A DNA stretch of 32,424 nt, from contig CACCJO010000009.1 of the NCBI GenBank assembly GCA_902546375.1, positions 1-32,424 of the forward strand, written 5' to 3'. The notes under the pieces were generated by a model. That model was not told the origin of the DNA. It did no database searches and saw only the letters and a program-made list of their open reading frames with translations. The stretch comes from an uncultured Pelagibacteraceae bacterium. GTDB taxonomy: Bacteria; Pseudomonadota; Alphaproteobacteria; Pelagibacterales; Pelagibacteraceae. Below are positions 1 through 9,841 of the stretch, in pieces (within the stretch, counting starts at the first letter, position 1; every line of letters starts with the position of its first letter). Both the position numbers and the translations under genes were made by a program.

Positions 1-45
1 GCCAGACTCGAACTGGCACTCCGCAAGCGGCAAGGATTTTAAGTC
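1..45 (-). repeat. tRNA-Leu(UAA) 3'-half fragment, cut by the window edge; likely recombination scar
   Basis: Positions 1-45 match 688-732 of the intact tRNA-Leu exactly. The match stops just past the anticodon loop (46 t vs 733 c, then divergent). Confidence 0.9.
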
Positions 46-102
46 TACTTCCAAAGTCATTATGCCAATCATATCAAGCCGTTTAATTTTCTGTTTTTTT
101 TC

Positions 103-130
103 AATGCACACTAATGCACAATTAATGCAC
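103..130. repeat. Three short direct repeats AATGCAC at ~10-11 bp spacing; candidate recombinase arm sites
   Basis: tcAATGCACactAATGCACaattAATGCACatt; copies at 103, 113 and 124. Confidence 0.6.
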
Positions 131-171
131 ATTCTTTTTAAAAATTTAAAGGATTTTTTAACATATTTGTA

Positions 172-205
172 GGTAGACCGTAAGTCCTTGACGTCTACCA
201 ATTCA
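172..205. repeat. Inverted repeat GGTAGAC...GTCTACC containing a degenerate tRNA-Leu D-arm/anticodon-like stretch
   Basis: GGTAGAC (172-178) and GTCTACC (193-199) are perfect inverted arms. taagtccttgacgtctaccaattc resembles tRNA taagtcctttgtgtctaccaattt at about 20/24 by hand. Confidence 0.5.
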
Positions 206-226
206 AAACTATTTATCATTTAGCTA

Positions 227-673
227 TTAAAATTTTTTCTTTTTAAAGATTTCACACTTTCCATTAAAGGTCATCATAAATTCATAAGGATTTTTATTAT
301 TAATATTGATTACTTCAGCTTCAAATTTTCCACTAAATCTATTTATATAAAAAGTCTCAGAAAACATTCTTGGTTTGGTTCCAATTACTTTACCAGCATT
401 ATCCAACTTCCAAACTTTATCATTAATAATTTTTATATTTTCGTTAAAATCAAATACTTTTTCACTACAAGTAGGTGATGAGCCAATACACCATAGATGA
501 CTACCATCATCATTATCTTTTTTAAAAAAAGACCATGGAAATTTTTTATCAGGCTTTTGTAATTCTCCATTTGGAAAATTCATTGTCACTGGAGTGCAGA
601 TTAACCTCTCAAGTTCTTTAGCATTTGCTGCTAAAGTGAAAACAAGAAATATTGCCAAAATAGTTTTAAACAC
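227..673 (-). CDS. Small secreted hypothetical protein (signal peptide-like N-terminus)
   Basis: ORF track 227..706 overlaps the tRNA-Leu. The likelier start is GTG at 671-673, giving VFKTILAIFLVFTLAANAKE..., a plausible signal peptide. Confidence 0.6.
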   Translation of the reverse strand: MFKTILAIFLVFTLAANAKELERLICTPVTMNFPNGELQKPDKKFPWSFFKKDNDDGSHLWCIGSSPTCSEKVFDFNENIKIINDKVWKLDNAGKVIGTKPRMFSETFYINRFSGKFEAEVININNKNPYEFMMTFNGKCEIFKKKKF

Positions 674-676
674 TAA

Positions 677-762
677 TGGTGCCCTCGGCCAGACTCGAAC
701 TGGCACTCCGCAAGCGGCAAGGATTTTAAGTCCTTTGTGTCTACCAATTTCACCACGAGGGC
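677..762 (-). tRNA. tRNA-Leu (UAA anticodon), CCA encoded
   Basis: Reverse complement GCCCTCGTGGTGAAATTGGTAGACACAAAGGACTTAAAATCCTTGCCGCTTGCGGAGTGCCAGTTCGAGTCTGGCCGAGGGCACCA: 7-bp acceptor stem, GGTAGAC D-arm, anticodon arm AAGGA-CTTAAAA-TCCTT, long variable arm, GTTCGAGTC T-arm. Confidence 0.96.
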
Positions 763-834
763 ATTAATGAATTTCATGAGTGTTTATGCCAATATTTATA
801 ATTGAACAAGATGAATAAGTAAATTTTTTTTATT

Positions 835-885
835 TTATCTCTCTGTTTCCGAGTTTGTTCCGAGTTATCCTATAATATCCTATTA
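835..885. repeat. Left copy of an end-associated repeat (TTATCTCTCTnnnnCCGAGnnTGTTCCGAG) plus a 10-bp tandem TATCCTATAA/TATCCTATTA
   Basis: 835-865 ttatctctctgtttccgagtttgttccgagt; 866-885 tatcctataa|tatcctatta. Related copy at 4390-4420. Confidence 0.6.
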
Positions 886-1830
886 AATAATGTAGTTATT
901 ATATTTTTTTGAGATTGTTTGTAGATCTATATTTGGAAACTCTGGAAGTAAAATACTTGATAACCGCTCCCCTTTTGGCTTTCTGCCGTATGAAAATTTA
1001 TATCTATATTTAGTTATTGAAAATGCATAAAATAATTTTTCTATAATAGTCATCGATCTTTTAGGAATCAAAACAATAACATTGCTATTAGGAACAAATT
1101 CAAAAATTGATAAATATGCATATGAATGACTTCCTTGACCATCTGTGGAAACATATAAAGTATTTTTGGGAAAGATATATTTATTTTGAATATAATTTTT
1201 ATCAACATATGCATCTATTGAATATCTTTGATCTTTTGTGGGTCTAATATAAGGTAAAAAATTATCATTAATTTTAGTATCTAATCTTTTTACTTCTGAT
1301 GACGCAATTCCATTATATGGATCAAATAGATCTCCAAGATAGACATTTTTAACAGATGTGTTCAAAGTTTTAAATTTAAAGTCATCTTTTTTAAAAAATT
1401 CGTACTTTTTATTTTCATTAAAGTTTATTTCTTTTGGTAAATCTTTTAATTTGGGTATTTTTATATAAGGCAAAGTTTTATTCACTTGTCTGCCATAGCT
1501 AAATTTATATCTATTAGATGAAATCACTGAAGCATAAAATATCATTTGTTGAGTATTGAGCTTTATTTTTGGTTTTAAGTAATAAAGATCTCTACCACTG
1601 TAATATTCTTCATCTTGATAAAAACACTCCATTACTGAGCCCCCACATGAAACAGAAATTGTATGTGCTGGATTAATCTTCTCGTTTGGAATTTTCTTTA
1701 CTCTTGTAATAACACCGTTATTTCTTGAGGTTCTTGCAACAAATGGAATTCCACTTTCACTTTCCTCAAGTTTGTAAAATTCTAAATTTGACCCATATAC
1801 ACAATGAAATAAATCCTCTATATTAGTCAT
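883..1830 (-). CDS. Specificity (S/B) subunit of a type I / BcgI-like type IIB restriction-modification system
   Basis: 315 aa with two half-repeats (FYASVISSNRYKFSYGRQVNKTLPYIKIPKL and LFYAFSITKYRYKFSYGRKPKGERLSSILLPEF), typical of two tandem target-recognition domains. Overlaps the start of the methylase-nuclease gene. Confidence 0.82.
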   Translation of the reverse strand: MTNIEDLFHCVYGSNLEFYKLEESESGIPFVARTSRNNGVITRVKKIPNEKINPAHTISVSCGGSVMECFYQDEEYYSGRDLYYLKPKIKLNTQQMIFYASVISSNRYKFSYGRQVNKTLPYIKIPKLKDLPKEINFNENKKYEFFKKDDFKFKTLNTSVKNVYLGDLFDPYNGIASSEVKRLDTKINDNFLPYIRPTKDQRYSIDAYVDKNYIQNKYIFPKNTLYVSTDGQGSHSYAYLSIFEFVPNSNVIVLIPKRSMTIIEKLFYAFSITKYRYKFSYGRKPKGERLSSILLPEFPNIDLQTISKKYNNYII

Positions 1831-3661
1831 TAATTAATTTGTATCCCATATAAGATTTTAAAGTTTTTTCAAATTCTGAAATGTCAAAATCTGTATAATC
1901 AGTCTCTAAATAATTCTCTATACACCATTCCTCATTTGGTTTAACGACCCTTCTTAATCCAAAACCATTAATACCAATGTTTTTTATATCTTTCATTTTG
2001 ACAATACCTTCAGTATTTTTTGTATTCCAATAAGAGTCTAGCCAATTTTTTCTTACTTTACCCCAGGCTCCAATATCTATCCTTCCTAAATTTTTTCTTT
2101 TTTCAAACAAATCTTCTCTCCAATATCCAAGATAAGTTTTGAAATTATCAGGATGAGGCTCATGTGCTTTTATAACAAGTAAACAAGTTACCACATTGGT
2201 TTTAGAATCATGGAATAGATCTGGTGGAACACTCATCACACCTAATACAGTGTGTTTTTTTTGTATAATTTCCTTTAACGCCAGATTATTTCCTGAAAAT
2301 TCATTAACACAACTGACAGGAATAATAGAAACACAGGTTGCTCCCTTTTGCAAAACTTCTAGGTTATTCAATATAAATTCAAGTTCCTCTGTATCATCTT
2401 TATCTGCTTTATAGGGAGGGTTTAAAAAACCAACATTTGGTTTTAATTTTTTAATTTTATTTATCAAATTTTCATCAAAACAATTTTCATTGTACATTCT
2501 GCTTTTTCCATCTCCATGTAAAATCATATTACTTGCGGATAGTGTAAAAATATCATCCATATATTCTACCCCAATAAAATTATTGTTCTTTATCTTTAAA
2601 ATTTCTTTATCTGATTTCACATTTTTTAAAATTTTTTTCATTGATGAAATTAAAAATCCTGCAGTACCACAGCAATTATCGAATACTATGCTGTCTTTAT
2701 TTATTTCAGCTATTTCACAAAATAATTCTGTTATATGCGGGGGTGTCAAAACTATACCTAAGCTTTTATCGCTATTAGCATATTTTAAAAATTTTATATA
2801 AAATTCTCCTAATAAATCATGATACTCAATACTTTTATTGAATTTATTAATACTTTTATCTATCTCACTTATCATCGTTATTAAAAAATCTTTACTTGTG
2901 GTTAAAGTTTTGTGTGTTTTTATAAAAGCAAAATTATTTTTAATTACATCCTTATAATTTTCAAAAACATCTGATTGTGAAAACTCCTCATAAATTGCCG
3001 CTAACAACGCATTGGTTAAACTTTTTGGGTTTTTATGTTTTTTATAGGATATTGAAAAAGGTCTATTTTTTAATGCCACAAGAATTCCACTAAATAGCAG
3101 CGCCCTTTGTTTTTCTTGAATTTTATTTTTATGTAGAAAAGTATTTAAATGAATTGAAAATTTAAGAATGTTTTCATGTTGAGTTTTTTTTTTATCATTA
3201 GATTTTAAATAAAGTTCAATTAAATCTTCAATTTGAACTAAATCTTTTAATTCAAAATCTTTATATTCTTCTCCTTTTAATTGTAAAAAAAAGGATTTTC
3301 TTAATAGATTTTTTTTATTTCCACTAATTGCAATAGATAGAACGTCATATTCCTTCGATAAATATTGTGAGTAAAGAAGTGCTCCATCAACTGCATAATC
3401 CTTAAATTTATCTCTATTTTTGCTCTCATGTTTTTTAATGTCATCTTTGCACTCTACAACAATCAAAAAATCATCGAGTTCTTTATGTTGAATTATAAAC
3501 TCTGGGCGACCACTCCCTGGTCCAGATTTAGAGGCATTTTGAAGTAATTTTTTAATTCTAGGATTATTGCTTATTTGCTCCTCAACAATAACTTTATTGT
3601 TATAAAATTTATTTTTTCTTAGAAGGTCCCTAAAAATTGCTACTGTTTCTACTTCTACCAT
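1823..3661 (-). CDS. Fused restriction-methylation subunit (N-terminal PD-(D/E)XK-like region plus N6-adenine methylase), BcgI A-like
   Basis: N-terminus GSGRPEFIIQHKELDDFLIVVECK fits a PD-(D/E)XK core. Methylase motif I-like VFDNCCGTAGFLISSM and motif IV NPPY (VGFLNPPYKAD). 612 aa. Confidence 0.85.
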   Translation of the reverse strand: MVEVETVAIFRDLLRKNKFYNNKVIVEEQISNNPRIKKLLQNASKSGPGSGRPEFIIQHKELDDFLIVVECKDDIKKHESKNRDKFKDYAVDGALLYSQYLSKEYDVLSIAISGNKKNLLRKSFFLQLKGEEYKDFELKDLVQIEDLIELYLKSNDKKKTQHENILKFSIHLNTFLHKNKIQEKQRALLFSGILVALKNRPFSISYKKHKNPKSLTNALLAAIYEEFSQSDVFENYKDVIKNNFAFIKTHKTLTTSKDFLITMISEIDKSINKFNKSIEYHDLLGEFYIKFLKYANSDKSLGIVLTPPHITELFCEIAEINKDSIVFDNCCGTAGFLISSMKKILKNVKSDKEILKIKNNNFIGVEYMDDIFTLSASNMILHGDGKSRMYNENCFDENLINKIKKLKPNVGFLNPPYKADKDDTEELEFILNNLEVLQKGATCVSIIPVSCVNEFSGNNLALKEIIQKKHTVLGVMSVPPDLFHDSKTNVVTCLLVIKAHEPHPDNFKTYLGYWREDLFEKRKNLGRIDIGAWGKVRKNWLDSYWNTKNTEGIVKMKDIKNIGINGFGLRRVVKPNEEWCIENYLETDYTDFDISEFEKTLKSYMGYKLIND

Positions 3662-3802
3662 AAAAATTTATTACATTTATTAAATTAGCTAAAAGCAAAA
3701 TCACATAAGCTTTTAAATGATAATAACAGAACAAAGTGTAATTTTCTATTTTATTTATCTCTCTAGAATGGTCATCGTAAATGCATTATAAGATAATTGA
3801 TT

Positions 3803-3913
3803 ATGAAAGATCCAAACACCATAAATAAAAAGAAGCCTTCTTGGTATTATCCACTAATCATAATACTTGGGATATATGCGGGTGCCGCTGCGAATATGTT
3901 TATAAATTTCTAA
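3803..3913 (+). CDS. Putative 36-aa single-transmembrane microprotein
   Basis: Manual translation MKDPNTINKKKPSWYYPLIIILGIYAGAAANMFINF*: positive N-terminus, one hydrophobic segment. Not in the supplied ORF track. Confidence 0.5.
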   Translation: MKDPNTINKKKPSWYYPLIIILGIYAGAAANMFINF

Positions 3914-3917
3914 AGTT

Positions 3918-3934
3918 AAGGTTAAGGGAACCTT
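3918..3934. terminator. Small hairpin downstream of the microprotein ORF; weak terminator candidate
   Basis: AAGGTT-AAGGG-AACCTT perfect 6-bp stem; no clear T-run. Confidence 0.25.
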
Positions 3935-3986
3935 GTAACAAAACGCTCCTTAATTCTGACACTTTTATTAATTAATATTAAAATTG

Positions 3987-4011
3987 TTAAAGTTAATTTT
4001 AAAAACTTTAA
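3987..4011. promoter_or_regulatory. 8-bp inverted repeat just upstream of the 4024 ORF; possible operator or hairpin
   Basis: TTAAAGTT (3987-3994), 9-nt spacer, AACTTTAA (4004-4011), 12 nt before ATG 4024. Confidence 0.3.
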
Positions 4012-4023
4012 TAACTCCAAAAT

Positions 4024-4356
4024 ATGCAACAACAAGAACTATTTGATTTCAGAAGAGACATTCTCTTTGAAAAAGATAATCAAATCGCTAGTTTTTATGA
4101 TGTCCTTAGCGAATCTGAAGACACAATTAGTTATGCTGAACATATAGATCCAAAAAAAAAATTCTCTATATGTGGTATGGATTATGAAGAGTATGTTGAT
4201 GTTAAAAAGAGATACTTAAAGGGTTTAACTTATGATCAAATACTCAACTACTTAAAAAAATTTAAGAAGGAAGAAAGATTAGAAAAATATAAAATCTTAC
4301 TTAAATTTAGAAACATACCTTTTGATGCTGATCTATTTACTTGGAACAGCGATTAA
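4024..4356 (+). CDS. Hypothetical 110-aa protein in the island, divergent from the RM genes
   Basis: Complete ORF, charged, no family recognised. Confidence 0.65.
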   Translation: MQQQELFDFRRDILFEKDNQIASFYDVLSESEDTISYAEHIDPKKKFSICGMDYEEYVDVKKRYLKGLTYDQILNYLKKFKKEERLEKYKILLKFRNIPFDADLFTWNSD

Positions 4357-4389
4357 TTAACTTGCGGGATTGAAGCACCTGGCAACAAA

Positions 4390-4420
4390 TTATCTCTCTA
4401 GATCCGAGAATGTTCCGAGA
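4390..4420. repeat. Right copy of the end-associated repeat
   Basis: ttatctctctagatccgagaatgttccgaga, same spacing as 835-865. A third partial TTATCTCTCT is at 3755-3764. Confidence 0.55.
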
Positions 4421-4480
4421 ATCTGAAAATTAATCAGTAAGTTTTTCCAATGAAAATAATCCAATGATTTAAAAAGTTAT

Positions 4481-4522
4481 GGGATTATAAGGGATAAAGA
4501 CCATTAGAGACTATTAGAGACT
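4481..4522. repeat. 10-bp-period direct repeats: GGGATTATAA GGGATAAAGA CC ATTAGAGACT ATTAGAGACT
   Basis: GGGAT at 4481 and 4491; ATTAGAGACT at 4503 and 4513; about 22 bp from the tRNA fragment at 4545. Confidence 0.65.
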
Positions 4523-4544
4523 CTGAAATTCCTCAACTCAAACT

Positions 4545-4645
4545 ATTTTAAGTCCTTTGTGTCTACCAATTTCACCACGAGGGCATTAATGAATTTCATG
4601 AGTGTTTATTCTAATATTTATAATTCAGCAAGTTTAATAAGTAAA
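4545..4645 (-). repeat. tRNA-Leu(UAA) 5'-half plus upstream flank duplicate; displaced 5' portion of an attachment site
   Basis: 4545-4642 aligns gap-free to 723-820 (offset 3822) with about 6 mismatches, all outside the tRNA part. Homology begins in the anticodon loop. Confidence 0.92.
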
Positions 4646-4646
4646 A

Positions 4647-6275
4647 TTATTTAAATTCAAGTTTGCAAAAATCATACACAGTAAAATCATTATTACTGTG
4701 AAGATGGTGTATTCCAATTAAGTTTTTTGAAAATTTAGGTTCTACTATACAATAATTATTCTCAATAAAATTATCTGGATCAAGTTTTTTTATCTCTTGA
4801 ATGTTAACTTTTTCTCCGTAAGTATTAAAACCAAAAGATTGGGCTACTCTAAATAGTTTTTTATTACAACTCAATATTCCACCATTTCGGCCTAAAGATG
4901 GATCAATTATTACTGGATTCTTTTTGAAACTAATCCACTCATTAGTTAATGGGCCCTTTTCTGAATAAAAAATTTGTAATTCGCTTTCATTTCCATGACC
5001 AGTGTTAGAAAAGGTGGTCATTAACCACCAAAAATTATTTAGGTTAAATATGATTGAGTCAGTTGATTTCTTATTTTTCATTATTGTTTTTTCATATTTC
5101 CATTTTAAAGGAAATTCCTCACACTTATAAATTCTTATTTCATTTAAATCACTTGTTTCTGGTAACATGTAATAATTATTTTCATATTCAAAAATATAAG
5201 GAAAAGATAAATGAAAATTTTCTTCAAGCGCCAGTCCTATTCTTTGTGAATTATTTTTGGAAATTTTGTAAACAGAAATTACACCCTTTTTATTTTTAAA
5301 GTTATACTCTTCAACAAATACATAATTTTCTTTTTTATATTTAACAACAAAAGGGTCTGCTAGAAAAGAATTTTTAGGATTTTCTATGACTTTAGATTTG
5401 TAGAAATTAAATTTATCGAAAGTTTCATCTTGAAAACCAATGTGCCAAACTTTATTAAAAATTTTATCTATAATAAATTTTTTTATTTTGTCAAAAGATA
5501 AAGTAAATAAATACTTGGTTGACTCACGAAAGTTTGGAGATTTATACAACCTATTAAAATAAGGGTAATTTTTCATTGATGGGGGAAGTGTGTTTGTTTG
5601 ACTAATTTCATTCAAAATACTTTTCATATAATGATTACTTCTCTCCTTTAATATGATTTGATTCAAAAGATAAAATTGTTCGGTTCTAAAGTTACCTCTT
5701 TTTAAAACGTTGCCACCGTCTAATTCTTCTGTCAAAATTTGTATAGTAAAACCTGTTTTTGGATTTTTTTCATAAACTTCCCAAAAACCTGATGGGCCGC
5801 CTCGATTGACTGAGTTATCGCCATGATGAAAAGAAATTATACCAAATTTTGAGCTGTTTAGGACTTTGCCTTTTAATATACCAGAACCACCTCTTATAAT
5901 TATATCTAAATTTAATGCTTTGATTTTGTCTATGGTTTTATCACTATAATTAAAATTTCTATCATTATTTGATTTTTCAAATTCAACATTTAGTTCTTTT
6001 ATATTTAAGTTTTTTAAATCATATTTTCCGAAATGTTTTTTATACTGAGGATATTTTTTAGAAATCAATTTTTTTTCTAAGATATTTACGATCTTAAATA
6101 AAATTCTGTCAACTATTTTGGATAATCCACCGCTGTAAATAGATTTTCTTTTATTATCAACATTTTGTATTAACAATACTTCTAAGTTAAGATTTGGGTC
6201 TTTTTTTATCCATTTAACTAAATCATTAATATACCAAGAAACTTTTGTTGAGTCTAAAATGATACCAATTTTCAT
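4647..6275 (-). CDS. Formyltransferase-like domain fused to a C-terminal beta-propeller domain resembling the GINT1 N-terminal / GH43-like fold; putative sugar N-formyltransferase
   Basis: Formyltransferase-like GGSGILKGKVLNSSKFGIISFHHGDNSVNRGGPSGFWEVY...DGGNVL. C-terminal WHIGF...FLADPFVVKYKKENYVFVEEYNFKNKKGVISVY...SFPYIFEYENNYYMLPETS resembles propeller blades. Confidence 0.7.
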   Translation of the reverse strand: MKIGIILDSTKVSWYINDLVKWIKKDPNLNLEVLLIQNVDNKRKSIYSGGLSKIVDRILFKIVNILEKKLISKKYPQYKKHFGKYDLKNLNIKELNVEFEKSNNDRNFNYSDKTIDKIKALNLDIIIRGGSGILKGKVLNSSKFGIISFHHGDNSVNRGGPSGFWEVYEKNPKTGFTIQILTEELDGGNVLKRGNFRTEQFYLLNQIILKERSNHYMKSILNEISQTNTLPPSMKNYPYFNRLYKSPNFRESTKYLFTLSFDKIKKFIIDKIFNKVWHIGFQDETFDKFNFYKSKVIENPKNSFLADPFVVKYKKENYVFVEEYNFKNKKGVISVYKISKNNSQRIGLALEENFHLSFPYIFEYENNYYMLPETSDLNEIRIYKCEEFPLKWKYEKTIMKNKKSTDSIIFNLNNFWWLMTTFSNTGHGNESELQIFYSEKGPLTNEWISFKKNPVIIDPSLGRNGGILSCNKKLFRVAQSFGFNTYGEKVNIQEIKKLDPDNFIENNYCIVEPKFSKNLIGIHHLHSNNDFTVYDFCKLEFK

Positions 6276-6384: not shown

Positions 6385-8529
6385 TTAAAATGTACTTACA
6401 ATTTCTAGGTTTGCACCATATTCAGGTATTTGACTCATCAAGCTATAATTAGAATTAATTCTGATATCGAAACCATTTAAATCTCTCTTATAACTCAAAG
6501 ATGCTTTGTCATTATCTAAAGTCATAGCATATTCAATATTGTCTGTCGGTATATAACCAAATCCTAAATATAAAGTATCACTATGAGAATTATCACTTTG
6601 ATTTCTCTCATAAATAGTCATTACAGAAAAACCATCATTTGTTAATATATCAAATCCAATATTTGCTCTTAAATTTTTTGAGTCTTGGCTGATAGATTTT
6701 GTGTATTCCGTAGTTTCCGATAGGTAACGATATTTTGCATCTGAAGACGGACTAAAATCTACTCCAAGCTCTAATCCACCATTTGGTTTAAAAGTAAAAG
6801 TATCAAAATTTAAAATATCACTTATGGTAAAACCAGCAGATATCATTCCAGTTTCAATTTTTTGAGATTTAAAAACTAAAGCTGAAGGACCTTTTTCTCT
6901 ATATGTCGACAATTCTGTATAGCTTAAATCAATTCTGAAATTAGGAGTAATATTAAAATTTTCTTTTTTATATGTTGTTAAGTAGTTAAGTGAACCAAAT
7001 ATTTGTGCACCATCTCTCTCTCCTGTTCTTGTGCTTCCTCCCCCTTTTCTAATATGATCAGTTTTTAAAGTGCTCATTCCAATGATGCCTTCTGTAAATC
7101 TTTTATCATCATGAATAAAAGTTCCATAATAAGATACACTAAAAGAGTCAGTATCTAAACTAGTCCCAGATGTGCCGACATCAACATCGTCTTTACCTAA
7201 TCTAAAAGCATAACCGTATAATCTATTTTCGCTTATCTTTTTATCCATGCCAAGTGTAATACCTCTGGTATTAATTTTCTTTGATGATGAAGTAGATGTG
7301 TCTCCAGTTCTACCAAAACTTACACTACCCTCACTCCAAAATGACCAATCATCTGATAATTTATCTAGAACTTCATTTGTTTTATTTGATATAGGAATAA
7401 TGTTAGAAAGCGATGCCATCATTGAATTAGAAAAATTTAATCTAATATTTTGGTTACTTAATTGATCATTAGTTCTATGTCTTCTTAACCAATACATACG
7501 GTTAAGAACTGGAGTACTTGCTTGAATAGCAATTTGTTTAGCAGTTGCAGTTTGAGACTCAATTGAGCTTAAAATATCTTTACCCTCATCAGAAGTAGTT
7601 ATTGGATCATCACAAGCACCAACGATTATGCTCCAATTACAAGTTAAATCAAATTCATAAACTTCTCCATCCTGATCAATTACAAACATTTTACTTCCAT
7701 CAGAATTAAATGCTGTTTCTCTTGCATTTCCTAAGCCGCTGTAGTTAGATAAATCAAGAGTTCCCTCAAGTGATAGAGTGGAGGTATCAAAAGCTGTTGT
7801 TAGTTTATATTGATTAATTAAATTATCTTCATCGTCAGTTGTATACATTTTAGTGCCGTCGTAATTAAAGACAATTCCGTCTATATAACTGTGATCAGAA
7901 CTTAGGTCTTCAGTATTAATATGAGTAACTCCTGATGTAATGACAAATGGGGTATCAAGTGTGTATTCATTCACTTCACCAGGATTGGCATCACTTTTTT
8001 CATTTCCAGCAACATACATTTTAGTTCCATCATTATTAAACGCAACTGAGGTCGGTCTTTTTTCTTGACCGCCTGTATCAAAACTTTGACCTAAATCAAA
8101 AGTAGTACTTGCAGTATCAATGTCATATGGTGTAGTTAACGTCCATTCAATAATAGTTTTATTATGATCAGCAATAAACATTTTTGTACCATCATTATTA
8201 AATACAACTTGCATAGCTCCATGATTACCAGTGTTTGAAAGTCCTGGTTCGGGATATGAACCTACATCTATACTGGTTCGTAAGGTTGCAGTAGAAATAT
8301 TGTAAGCTGTTGTTAAATCATACTCGTAAACCTTATCTCCTGTTTGCGATGCTTTCATCGATGATGTATACATTTTGGTTCCATCGTTATTAAAAGTTAA
8401 TGCGTGTGTGTTGAAGCCACTTACATTTTCAACTGCTTTACTTCGTACAAGAGTTGGCTCCGCAATAGCTTTAGAAAAAAATAAAGCTAAAAAAAATACA
8501 ATGTAATGAATTTTATAAATACTTTTCAC
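6385..8529 (-). CDS. Autotransporter-type outer membrane protein: signal peptide, N-terminal propeller-like repeats, C-terminal beta-barrel
   Basis: Five FNxDGxKM[YF] repeats at about aa 46, 110, 164, 221 and 274. C-terminal half has alternating barrel-like strands and ends in ...LEIVSTF (terminal Phe). Confidence 0.82.
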   Translation of the reverse strand: MKSIYKIHYIVFFLALFFSKAIAEPTLVRSKAVENVSGFNTHALTFNNDGTKMYTSSMKASQTGDKVYEYDLTTAYNISTATLRTSIDVGSYPEPGLSNTGNHGAMQVVFNNDGTKMFIADHNKTIIEWTLTTPYDIDTASTTFDLGQSFDTGGQEKRPTSVAFNNDGTKMYVAGNEKSDANPGEVNEYTLDTPFVITSGVTHINTEDLSSDHSYIDGIVFNYDGTKMYTTDDEDNLINQYKLTTAFDTSTLSLEGTLDLSNYSGLGNARETAFNSDGSKMFVIDQDGEVYEFDLTCNWSIIVGACDDPITTSDEGKDILSSIESQTATAKQIAIQASTPVLNRMYWLRRHRTNDQLSNQNIRLNFSNSMMASLSNIIPISNKTNEVLDKLSDDWSFWSEGSVSFGRTGDTSTSSSKKINTRGITLGMDKKISENRLYGYAFRLGKDDVDVGTSGTSLDTDSFSVSYYGTFIHDDKRFTEGIIGMSTLKTDHIRKGGGSTRTGERDGAQIFGSLNYLTTYKKENFNITPNFRIDLSYTELSTYREKGPSALVFKSQKIETGMISAGFTISDILNFDTFTFKPNGGLELGVDFSPSSDAKYRYLSETTEYTKSISQDSKNLRANIGFDILTNDGFSVMTIYERNQSDNSHSDTLYLGFGYIPTDNIEYAMTLDNDKASLSYKRDLNGFDIRINSNYSLMSQIPEYGANLEIVSTF

Positions 8530-9040: not shown

Positions 9041-9841
9041 ATGAAAAAAAAACTTACAATCGTAATTTTTACTGATTTAGATGGATCTCTTTTGCACAGA
9101 GATACTTTTGAATTTGATAGCATCAAAGATTATATAAAAAGTCTTGTAAATAAAGGTGTGATTATTATTCCAAATTCTAGCAAAACAGAAAAAGAAATTA
9201 AAAAATTCAATGAAGAGCTCGGAGTAAATCTACCTTTTATATCAGAAAATGGATCATCTATTCATGGATTAAATTTAATAACCTCTAATTTTCCAGATAA
9301 ACTTGTCCTTAGCCGAGAGAAAGAAGAACTAATTAAGATTTTTGAAAATAAAGTTCCTGAAAAATTGAAAGAAAAATGTTTTCAAATTTCAAAAATGAGT
9401 AAAAAAGAGCAAGAAAATATTTTAGGACAAAAGGATGTGAAACTCAAAGATGCTTTAAATAGAAAGTATACTTTACCTTTTTTATTTAAAGGAGACAAAA
9501 ATGAGAAAAATAAATTATTAAAAATTTTAAATTCTAATTCATTAACGCTTCAAGAAGGTGGGCGTGTTTTAAACCTTTGTGATAATATTAATAAAGTTAA
9601 ATCCATGAATAGAGTTATAAAAATTTTAAAAAAAACTGAGGATAAAATTAAGACCATTGCAGTTGGCGACAATTATAATGATTTAGATATGTTAAAAAGT
9701 TGTGACATACCTTGTTTAGTATTCAATGATCAATTTATTCAAGATCAAATAAACATTGATAATCTTATATTTTCAAACAAGCCATCACCTGAAGGCTGGG
9801 CTGATGTGATCAAAACGGCACTACTTAAATTGGGTTATTAG
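9041..9841 (+). CDS. HAD-family mannosyl/glucosyl-3-phosphoglycerate phosphatase
   Basis: FTDLDGSLL HAD motif I, C-terminal GDNYNDLDML motif; next to a GpgS-like glycosyltransferase. Confidence 0.85.
   Translation: MKKKLTIVIFTDLDGSLLHRDTFEFDSIKDYIKSLVNKGVIIIPNSSKTEKEIKKFNEELGVNLPFISENGSSIHGLNLITSNFPDKLVLSREKEELIKIFENKVPEKLKEKCFQISKMSKKEQENILGQKDVKLKDALNRKYTLPFLFKGDKNEKNKLLKILNSNSLTLQEGGRVLNLCDNINKVKSMNRVIKILKKTEDKIKTIAVGDNYNDLDMLKSCDIPCLVFNDQFIQDQINIDNLIFSNKPSPEGWADVIKTALLKLGY

Follow-up and report, generated by a model that had tools for sequence, protein, structure and literature searches.

SAR11 bacteria are very abundant in the ocean, and their genomes are streamlined and poor in recognizable mobile DNA, yet contain hypervariable regions. 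In those regions, Wilhelm et al. (2007; PMC2217521) saw no signature of integrons, and they left the mechanism open. The nearest described arrangement to the one reported below is that of the tandem ssrA islands of Dehalococcoides, which lie in series at one RNA gene with fragments of that gene between them, lack an integration module in about half of the cases, and were proposed to be cis-mobilizable (PMC3146451). In the biology of integrative and conjugative elements (ICEs) and integrative and mobilizable elements (IMEs), cis-mobilizable elements (CIMEs; term per PMC3146451) likewise keep their attachment (att) sites, carry no integrase or transfer genes, and accrete side by side. Here, we describe small integrase-less elements at the tRNA-Leu(UAA) gene of SAR11, starting from a stretch of 32,424 nucleotides (the window) at the start of a SAR11 (Pelagibacter-type) contig (C9) from a genome that is 72% complete. 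We consider it very probable that these elements are trans-mobilized, integrase-addressed cassettes that accrete on the 5' side of the tRNA gene.

An earlier note, made from the letters of the window, had proposed serial integration with crossover in the tRNA-Leu(UAA) anticodon loop and had called for a search for empty sites in relatives; the comparison of empty and filled sites supports the proposal. We read 77 loci with an intact tRNA gene, the window included, which were chosen by likeness to the window (L and G numbers are our labels for loci or contigs and for genomes). At three empty sites (L137, L117, and L141), the 5' end of the tRNA gene is 99 to 100 bp from a phosphatase-like gene, and an NAD kinase gene lies 4 bp off the other side. 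In five arrays (L125, L052, L044, L147, and L131), the phosphatase-like gene lies 92 to 100 bp from a displaced 5' half, the outermost one. The anchor distances in empty and filled sites agree within a few base pairs, and therefore the intervening DNA entered between the two tRNA halves.

Displaced 5' halves were present in many of the loci (at least one in 41 of the 77, two in seven), delimiting a total of 48 5'-side units of 0.9 to 11.4 kb (median, 2.8 kb), several of them in tandem. The displaced 5' copies decay outward, with a mean identity to the consensus of 0.986 at the tRNA, then 0.917 and 0.888. Displaced 3' halves are rare (the window, L034, and L123), and the 5'-side (reversed) class dominates the tRNA-Leu(UAA) locus. 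The tRNA-Leu(UAA) gene of SAR11 is an attB with its crossover in the anticodon-loop DNA TTTTAAG: the identity of the displaced fragments ends in the anticodon loop, and the tRNA is kept intact. The elements displace the 5' half and bring an upstream (promoter) flank with them, as in the reversed-orientation class that Zhao and Williams reportedly defined in 2002, in which the 5' part of the RNA gene comes from the element. A stretch reaching about 110 bp out from the crossover is 87 to 100% conserved across the 77 loci, and conservation collapses just beyond; the working tRNA gene has an imported upstream region and an imported 5' half.

ARAGORN called one tRNA in the window, tRNA-Leu(TAA) at 677 to 762 on the minus strand, in agreement with the earlier note. 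Positions 1 to 45, described there as an exact 3'-half copy of 688 to 732, are indeed 100% identical to it (E = 2.7e-17). The copy appears short because the contig starts within it; its counterpart in G398 is complete at 56 bp, reaching the 3' end of the tRNA, and the NAD kinase gene comes next. A contig start inside this copy is what is expected for an assembly break at a repeat, and an assembly artifact is very unlikely as the source of the split tRNA architecture, because dozens of other genomes share it, two of them on a single contig (G384 and G297). The copy of the 5' half and flank had been placed at 4545 to 4642 (matching 723 to 820). Its tRNA part (4545 to 4584) is exact, but the similarity extends farther: 4545 to 4652 is 93% identical to 723 to 830 (E = 2.4e-40), and the duplication with its inexact flank runs to 4657 (113 bp, against 723 to 835; 91%). 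No further copies of either half were found in the rest of the window's genome. The overlap between the fragments (723 to 732), which had been read as the anticodon loop, contains the loop TTTTAAG (724 to 730), but A723, T731, and C732 lie outside it, and the inverted arms AAGGA/TCCTT said to flank the loop (719 to 723 and 731 to 735) are present as the anticodon stem proper. At least two recombination events had been postulated for the window, which fits one event on the 3' side and one on the 5' side. The displaced 3' half indicates that the 3' half of the window's tRNA gene also appears to be imported, through a mini-element; with a 5'-side element and a 3'-side mini-element, both present tRNA halves would therefore, on this model, be imports.

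Integrase genes are largely missing from these units: 46 of the 48 lack one and 2 encode one, open reading frame (ORF) and family searches found none in the window's 5'-side element, and a Pfam search of 23 genomes found none near the tRNA, and its matches, about one to a genome, were Xer-like genes at remote positions. Despite this, most 5'-side elements keep complete attP-like ends. In each element, a TATCTCTC-like lead precedes a direct repeat whose unit, a word of 6 to 8 bp, recurs at 11-bp spacing; at the left the repeat adjoins the conserved flank, and at the right it lies roughly 120 to 150 bp before the crossover. The words of other elements include TGTGCTGG, GTTTCTAG, GGTACTGG, TGTACGAG, and TGCTCCAG among others; 37 elements gave 22 different left words as extracted, a few of which are one word in another register. 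Left and right words are exactly equal in 25 of the 37 elements, against 69 of 1,332 mismatched pairs (5%). The mean word distance is 1.24 within elements versus 4.11 between elements (0 of 20,000 permutations as low), and an independent first scoring agrees. Among 379 genomes, 18 contained the window's exact 17-bp word pair and none contained the reversed-pattern control; all matches of the pair with known tRNA coordinates are at tRNA-Leu. Both attachment ends are kept and there are no integration or transfer genes, which is the anatomy of a CIME.

One integrase-less unit of 2,654 bp (ATP-grasp and proteasome-like genes by Pfam counts) is 98.6% identical between G176 and G259 and 96.3% identical in G338, whereas 700 bp on the NAD kinase side are 77 to 79% identical among these genomes. 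The two att ends account for 38 of the 41 differences between the G176 and G259 units, and the body of about 2.4 kb for the other 3; the word GCTACTAG of G176 is GTTTCTAG in G259 at three of the four positions. The near-identical body and divergent ends therefore indicate that the cargo moved recently and that the ends were exchanged. Words and arms thus appear to be exchangeable while the cargo stays the same (L050, L135, and L144).

Autonomous elements with the same attachment design exist. IMG/VR contigs with the same tRNA 5' half include a family of the same end layout (L059, L074, L078, and L080), which encodes a tyrosine recombinase of 545 to 549 amino acids (aa) and, where read, a DUF5906 primase-helicase. 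L059 is 7.8 kb long with the same attP and is probably circular, because it has a 99-bp terminal repeat. Three autonomous elements (L092, L093, and L152) are integrated at tRNA-Leu(UAA) on the 5' side in the same orientation, and genomes with the integrated autonomous kind are G120, G168, and the single amplified genome AG-909-L14; helper-type integrases, some of them distant, occur in 7 of 399 congeners. The right end ...GGACTGACTCGTCTGTGAATCCCTCGGC is identical in the autonomous element L092 and in L131. The integrases of L092 and L152, whose words differ (TGTGCTGG and GGTACTGG), are 94 to 96% identical from alignment column 165 on (core-binding and catalytic domains) and 47 to 60% identical in columns 1 to 125. 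L059 and L090 share a word, and their N-terminal domains are 92 to 94% identical; the word of L074 differs by one base, and its integrase departs mainly in the N-terminal domain. A search of the integrase sequence against the PDB gave no match. In an AlphaFold model, the N-terminal domain (predicted local distance difference test score, 75 to 86) has beta strands at 57 to 103 and a helix at 111 to 125, and Foldseek aligned it with the arm-type binding domains of the HPI, P4-like, and HAI7 integrases (3jtz, 3rmp, and 3ju0; TM-score on target, 0.65 to 0.75). We infer that each word is an arm-type site of a cognate integrase.

An incoming 5'-side element carries its own tRNA 5' half together with a promoter flank of about 110 bp. 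Each insertion thus reassembles a working tRNA gene, joining this imported half to the 3' half already in place, and the old 5' half is pushed outward. Repeated insertion produces a tandem array with the newest element beside the tRNA; an excised circle would join the right end to TTTTAAGTCC, the 5' half, and the left arm. We propose that an integrase supplied in trans reads the words with its N-terminal arm-binding domain. The putative source of this integrase is the rare autonomous, satellite-like elements of about 8 kb (integrase and primase-helicase), which have the same attB and end design, and cargo cassettes may be mobilized only by a helper of matching address. We lean slightly toward the full form of this proposal, a helper-addressed cassette system in which the words select the mobilizing integrase, exchange of words and arms re-addresses cargo, and the tRNA gene is an entry port that stacks cassettes by arrival. 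As a guess, phage packaging could be the vehicle between cells.

Several results weigh against this proposal. Left and right words, as extracted, are similar and not identical in 12 of the 37 elements. No circular excised form of an integrase-less element was observed. The 399 congeners and the IMG/VR contigs yielded no helper integrase bearing the window's TCCGAG word; this word occurs in 86 IMG/VR stretches, and none of those checked had the tRNA-Leu core or the integrase. The covariation of N-terminal domain and word is suggestive only, because just seven integrases have known words, and the Foldseek E values are weak (0.06 to 0.2), because confidence in the remainder of the model is low. 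The proportion of filled loci, 41 of 77, is not a population frequency, because the loci were selected for resemblance to the window.

Alternatively, the small elements could be dead deletion remnants of autonomous elements or prophages, immobile after loss of the integrase; they have ends in common with autonomous elements inserted at this site, as L131 has with L092, and some distal copies are decayed. We find this improbable: both ends are intact with matching words, an integrase-less element is 98.6% identical across genomes that are only 79% identical at the neighboring core gene, and integrase-less units outnumber autonomous ones 46 to 2, many of them adjoining the tRNA. An exchange of cargo by homologous recombination between the conserved tRNA and flank and the outer gene, in place of site-specific recombination, could use the promoter flank common to all copies as possible homology, and the exchanged ends of L050, L135, and L144 resemble recombination between ends. 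Homologous recombination, however, leaves neither displaced half-tRNAs with fixed TTTTAAG boundaries nor words matched across an element, and as an account of the locus it is highly improbable.

It is scarcely credible that the site serves pelagiphages as their attB and that the pieces were left by lysogeny of T7-like pelagiphages and not by a separate element family. HTVC105P, HTVC109P, and MedDCM-OCT-S35-C6 do have the same 5' half (39 to 46 bp) beside an integrase, and a 46-bp tRNA-Leu att was reported for such a phage (PMC3861242). Pelagiphage attP flanks, though, are without paired words and without GAGACTA and GGGAT repeats, the 25 Pfam families most frequent in the cargo include none for phage structural proteins, and the element ends are common to the family of the 545-aa integrase, not to pelagiphages. 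The elements thus differ from a pelagiphage prophage in both structural genes and attP arms.

The mobilized cassettes that we favor carry cargo such as anti-phage genes and no integrase. Across units, the cargo is highly mixed (restriction-methylation, nucleases, pilin-like N-methylation proteins, ATP-grasp, proteases, and autotransporters), and 122 of 137 cargo ORFs are oriented like the tRNA gene. By its family matches, the cargo of the window unit includes a two-gene restriction-modification system (Table 1). The mini-element stretch at 46 to 676 is 99.84% identical in G398, compared with about 82% for the flanking core DNA, and L123 has the same layout as the 3'-side mini-element of the window.

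Table 1. Coordinates of features at and around the tRNA-Leu(UAA) gene of the window
Feature	Position	Strand	Remarks
Displaced 3' half of tRNA-Leu(UAA)	1..45	-	Truncated by contig start; core loop copy 37-43
Body of classic-orientation (3'-side) mini-element, 687 bp	46..676	.	ATGCACA at 104-110, 114-120, 125-131; hairpin GGTAGAC/GTCTACC 172-199
159-aa ORF, secreted-protein-like N-terminus, no family	227..706	-	Listed start inside tRNA
Intact tRNA-Leu(UAA)	677..762	-	Crossover core = anticodon loop 724-730
5'-side element	724..4552	.	3,822-bp unit crossover to crossover; no integrase
tRNA upstream/promoter flank brought by element	763..835	-	Promoter-like TTGTTC at 809-804
Left arm, word TCCGAG x2, 11 bp apart	848..864	+	Recurrent end layout
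TATCCTATAATATCCTAT, inverse of right-end GGGAT repeat	866..883	+	Sequence; recurs in other elements
Restriction specificity subunit	883..1830	-	Methylase_S E 2.9e-18; PADLOC Specificity_II E 1.1e-64
Restriction enzyme-methyltransferase fusion (Type IIG-like)	1823..3661	-	N6_Mtase E 1.4e-21; PADLOC REase_MTase_IIG residues 2-611, E 2.5e-145
110-aa ORF, no family	4024..4356	+	95%-identical copies near tmRNA in other genomes
Right arm, word TCCGAG x2, 11 bp apart	4403..4419	+	Recurrent end layout
GGGATTATAAGGGAT, accessory repeat of right end	4481..4495	+	Sequence; recurs in other elements
ATTAGAGACT x2, inner right-end repeat	4503..4522	+	Sequence; recurs in other elements
Displaced 5' half + former upstream flank	4545..4657	-	tRNA part 4545-4584; core 4546-4552
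Phosphatase-like gene (labeled MPGP in scripts)	9041..9841	+	Chromosomal anchor on this side; 99-100 bp from tRNA in empty sites

The true start of the 159-aa ORF probably lies downstream, because the listed start falls within the tRNA. In the 3'-side mini-elements (window 172 to 199 and the left element of L123), a GGTAGAC/GTCTACC-type hairpin adjoins arm-like ATGCACA repeats, and its sequence resembles the tRNA-Leu 5' half. The region of the 110-aa ORF (about 400 bp) is 88 to 95% identical in about 20 other SAR11 genomes and lay near the transfer-messenger RNA (tmRNA) gene in four of the five genomes opened; G156 (L263) has a 75% homolog behind the same restriction pair, at a place away from tRNA-Leu. 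We considered this ORF as an excisionase for its size, and the copies near tmRNA argue against that role. An autotransporter gene occupies 6385 to 8529 of the window, and its homologs in G398, G111, and others lie beside the tRNA directly behind a left arm with the word TTCTAG; the window gene is therefore probably cargo of an older element.

Other observations concern the integrases. At the right ends of L092, L093, and L152, the opening codons of the integrase gene contain the right-arm words, a position suggesting that the integrase, by binding there, regulates its own expression as well. On the fragments L094 and L096, relatives of the helper integrase (29 to 38%) accompany tRNA-Ser(TGA) and tRNA-Ser(GCT) genes, so similar systems may use other tRNA genes. 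Several other attP designs, some of them pelagiphage-like, occur with the same tRNA-Leu(UAA) 5' half in IMG/VR (L060, L062, L064, L069, L075, L077, and L081); both arms of L075 and L077 bear the words GGGCAACT and GGGTAACT, and the two encode integrases with 31 to 35% identity to the helper family.

With these results, one SAR11 locus gains a defined mechanism of gene gain, with a site, a crossover, ends, an order of arrival, and a candidate family of helper enzymes. The matched-word code is a natural data set on how the arm-binding domains of integrases read DNA, and the locus offers a case in which nonautonomous elements appear to be partitioned among helpers. If our proposal is true, cargo can be re-addressed to another helper through exchange of words or arms, with the tRNA gene as a fixed port. 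We found no description of these SAR11 cassettes in the literature, a comparison to which the original tycheposon, virion-encapsidated integrative mobile element (VEIME), and Zhao and Williams papers did not belong, and novelty is unproven; in the literature searched, we met no earlier account of matched, variable words or of the exchange that they appear to undergo.

The ssrA islands use a serine-type integrase, DsiB (CcrB-like), and the 3' end of ssrA (PMC3146451), whereas the SAR11 cassettes have a tyrosine recombinase, a displaced 5' half, and element-specific words at their ends. In contrast to CIMEs, the SAR11 elements outnumber the autonomous form, and their ends carry a variable, matched address. 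Tycheposons and VEIMEs, as listed in two papers (PMC11389934; PMC10872708), are marine, tRNA-targeted recombinase elements with cargo. By that description, the autonomous relatives of about 8 kb (integrase and primase) resemble them, a likeness that assigns no class; the window element has no recombinase and a reversed tRNA orientation, and it is not a tycheposon because it encodes no tyrosine recombinase. The pelagiphage tRNA-Leu att involves the same host group and the same 46-bp 5' half (PMC3861242), and a Fonsibacter prophage at tRNA-Leu(TAG) is from the same host group (PMC6811365), but both cases are full phages with other attP arms, and no integrase-less cassettes were described in them. 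The additive flexible genomic islands of Methylophilaceae are likewise additive, with recurring tRNA fragments, in streamlined aquatic bacteria; they differ in using the last 20 bp of tRNA-Lys, and no arm-word system was reported for them (PMC10872708). Integrons and clusters of attC sites lacking integron integrases (CALIN) likewise hold ordered cargo, newest at the anchor, with an integrase that may be elsewhere (PMC11389934), and cargo is mostly in one direction here too. The SAR11 elements have no IntI-type gene and no attC hairpins but attP-like ends with arm-site repeats and a tRNA anchor, so they are neither integrons nor CALIN arrays. In its working, the locus resembles a row of accreting cis-mobilizable elements, or a cassette array for which a tRNA gene is the entry port.

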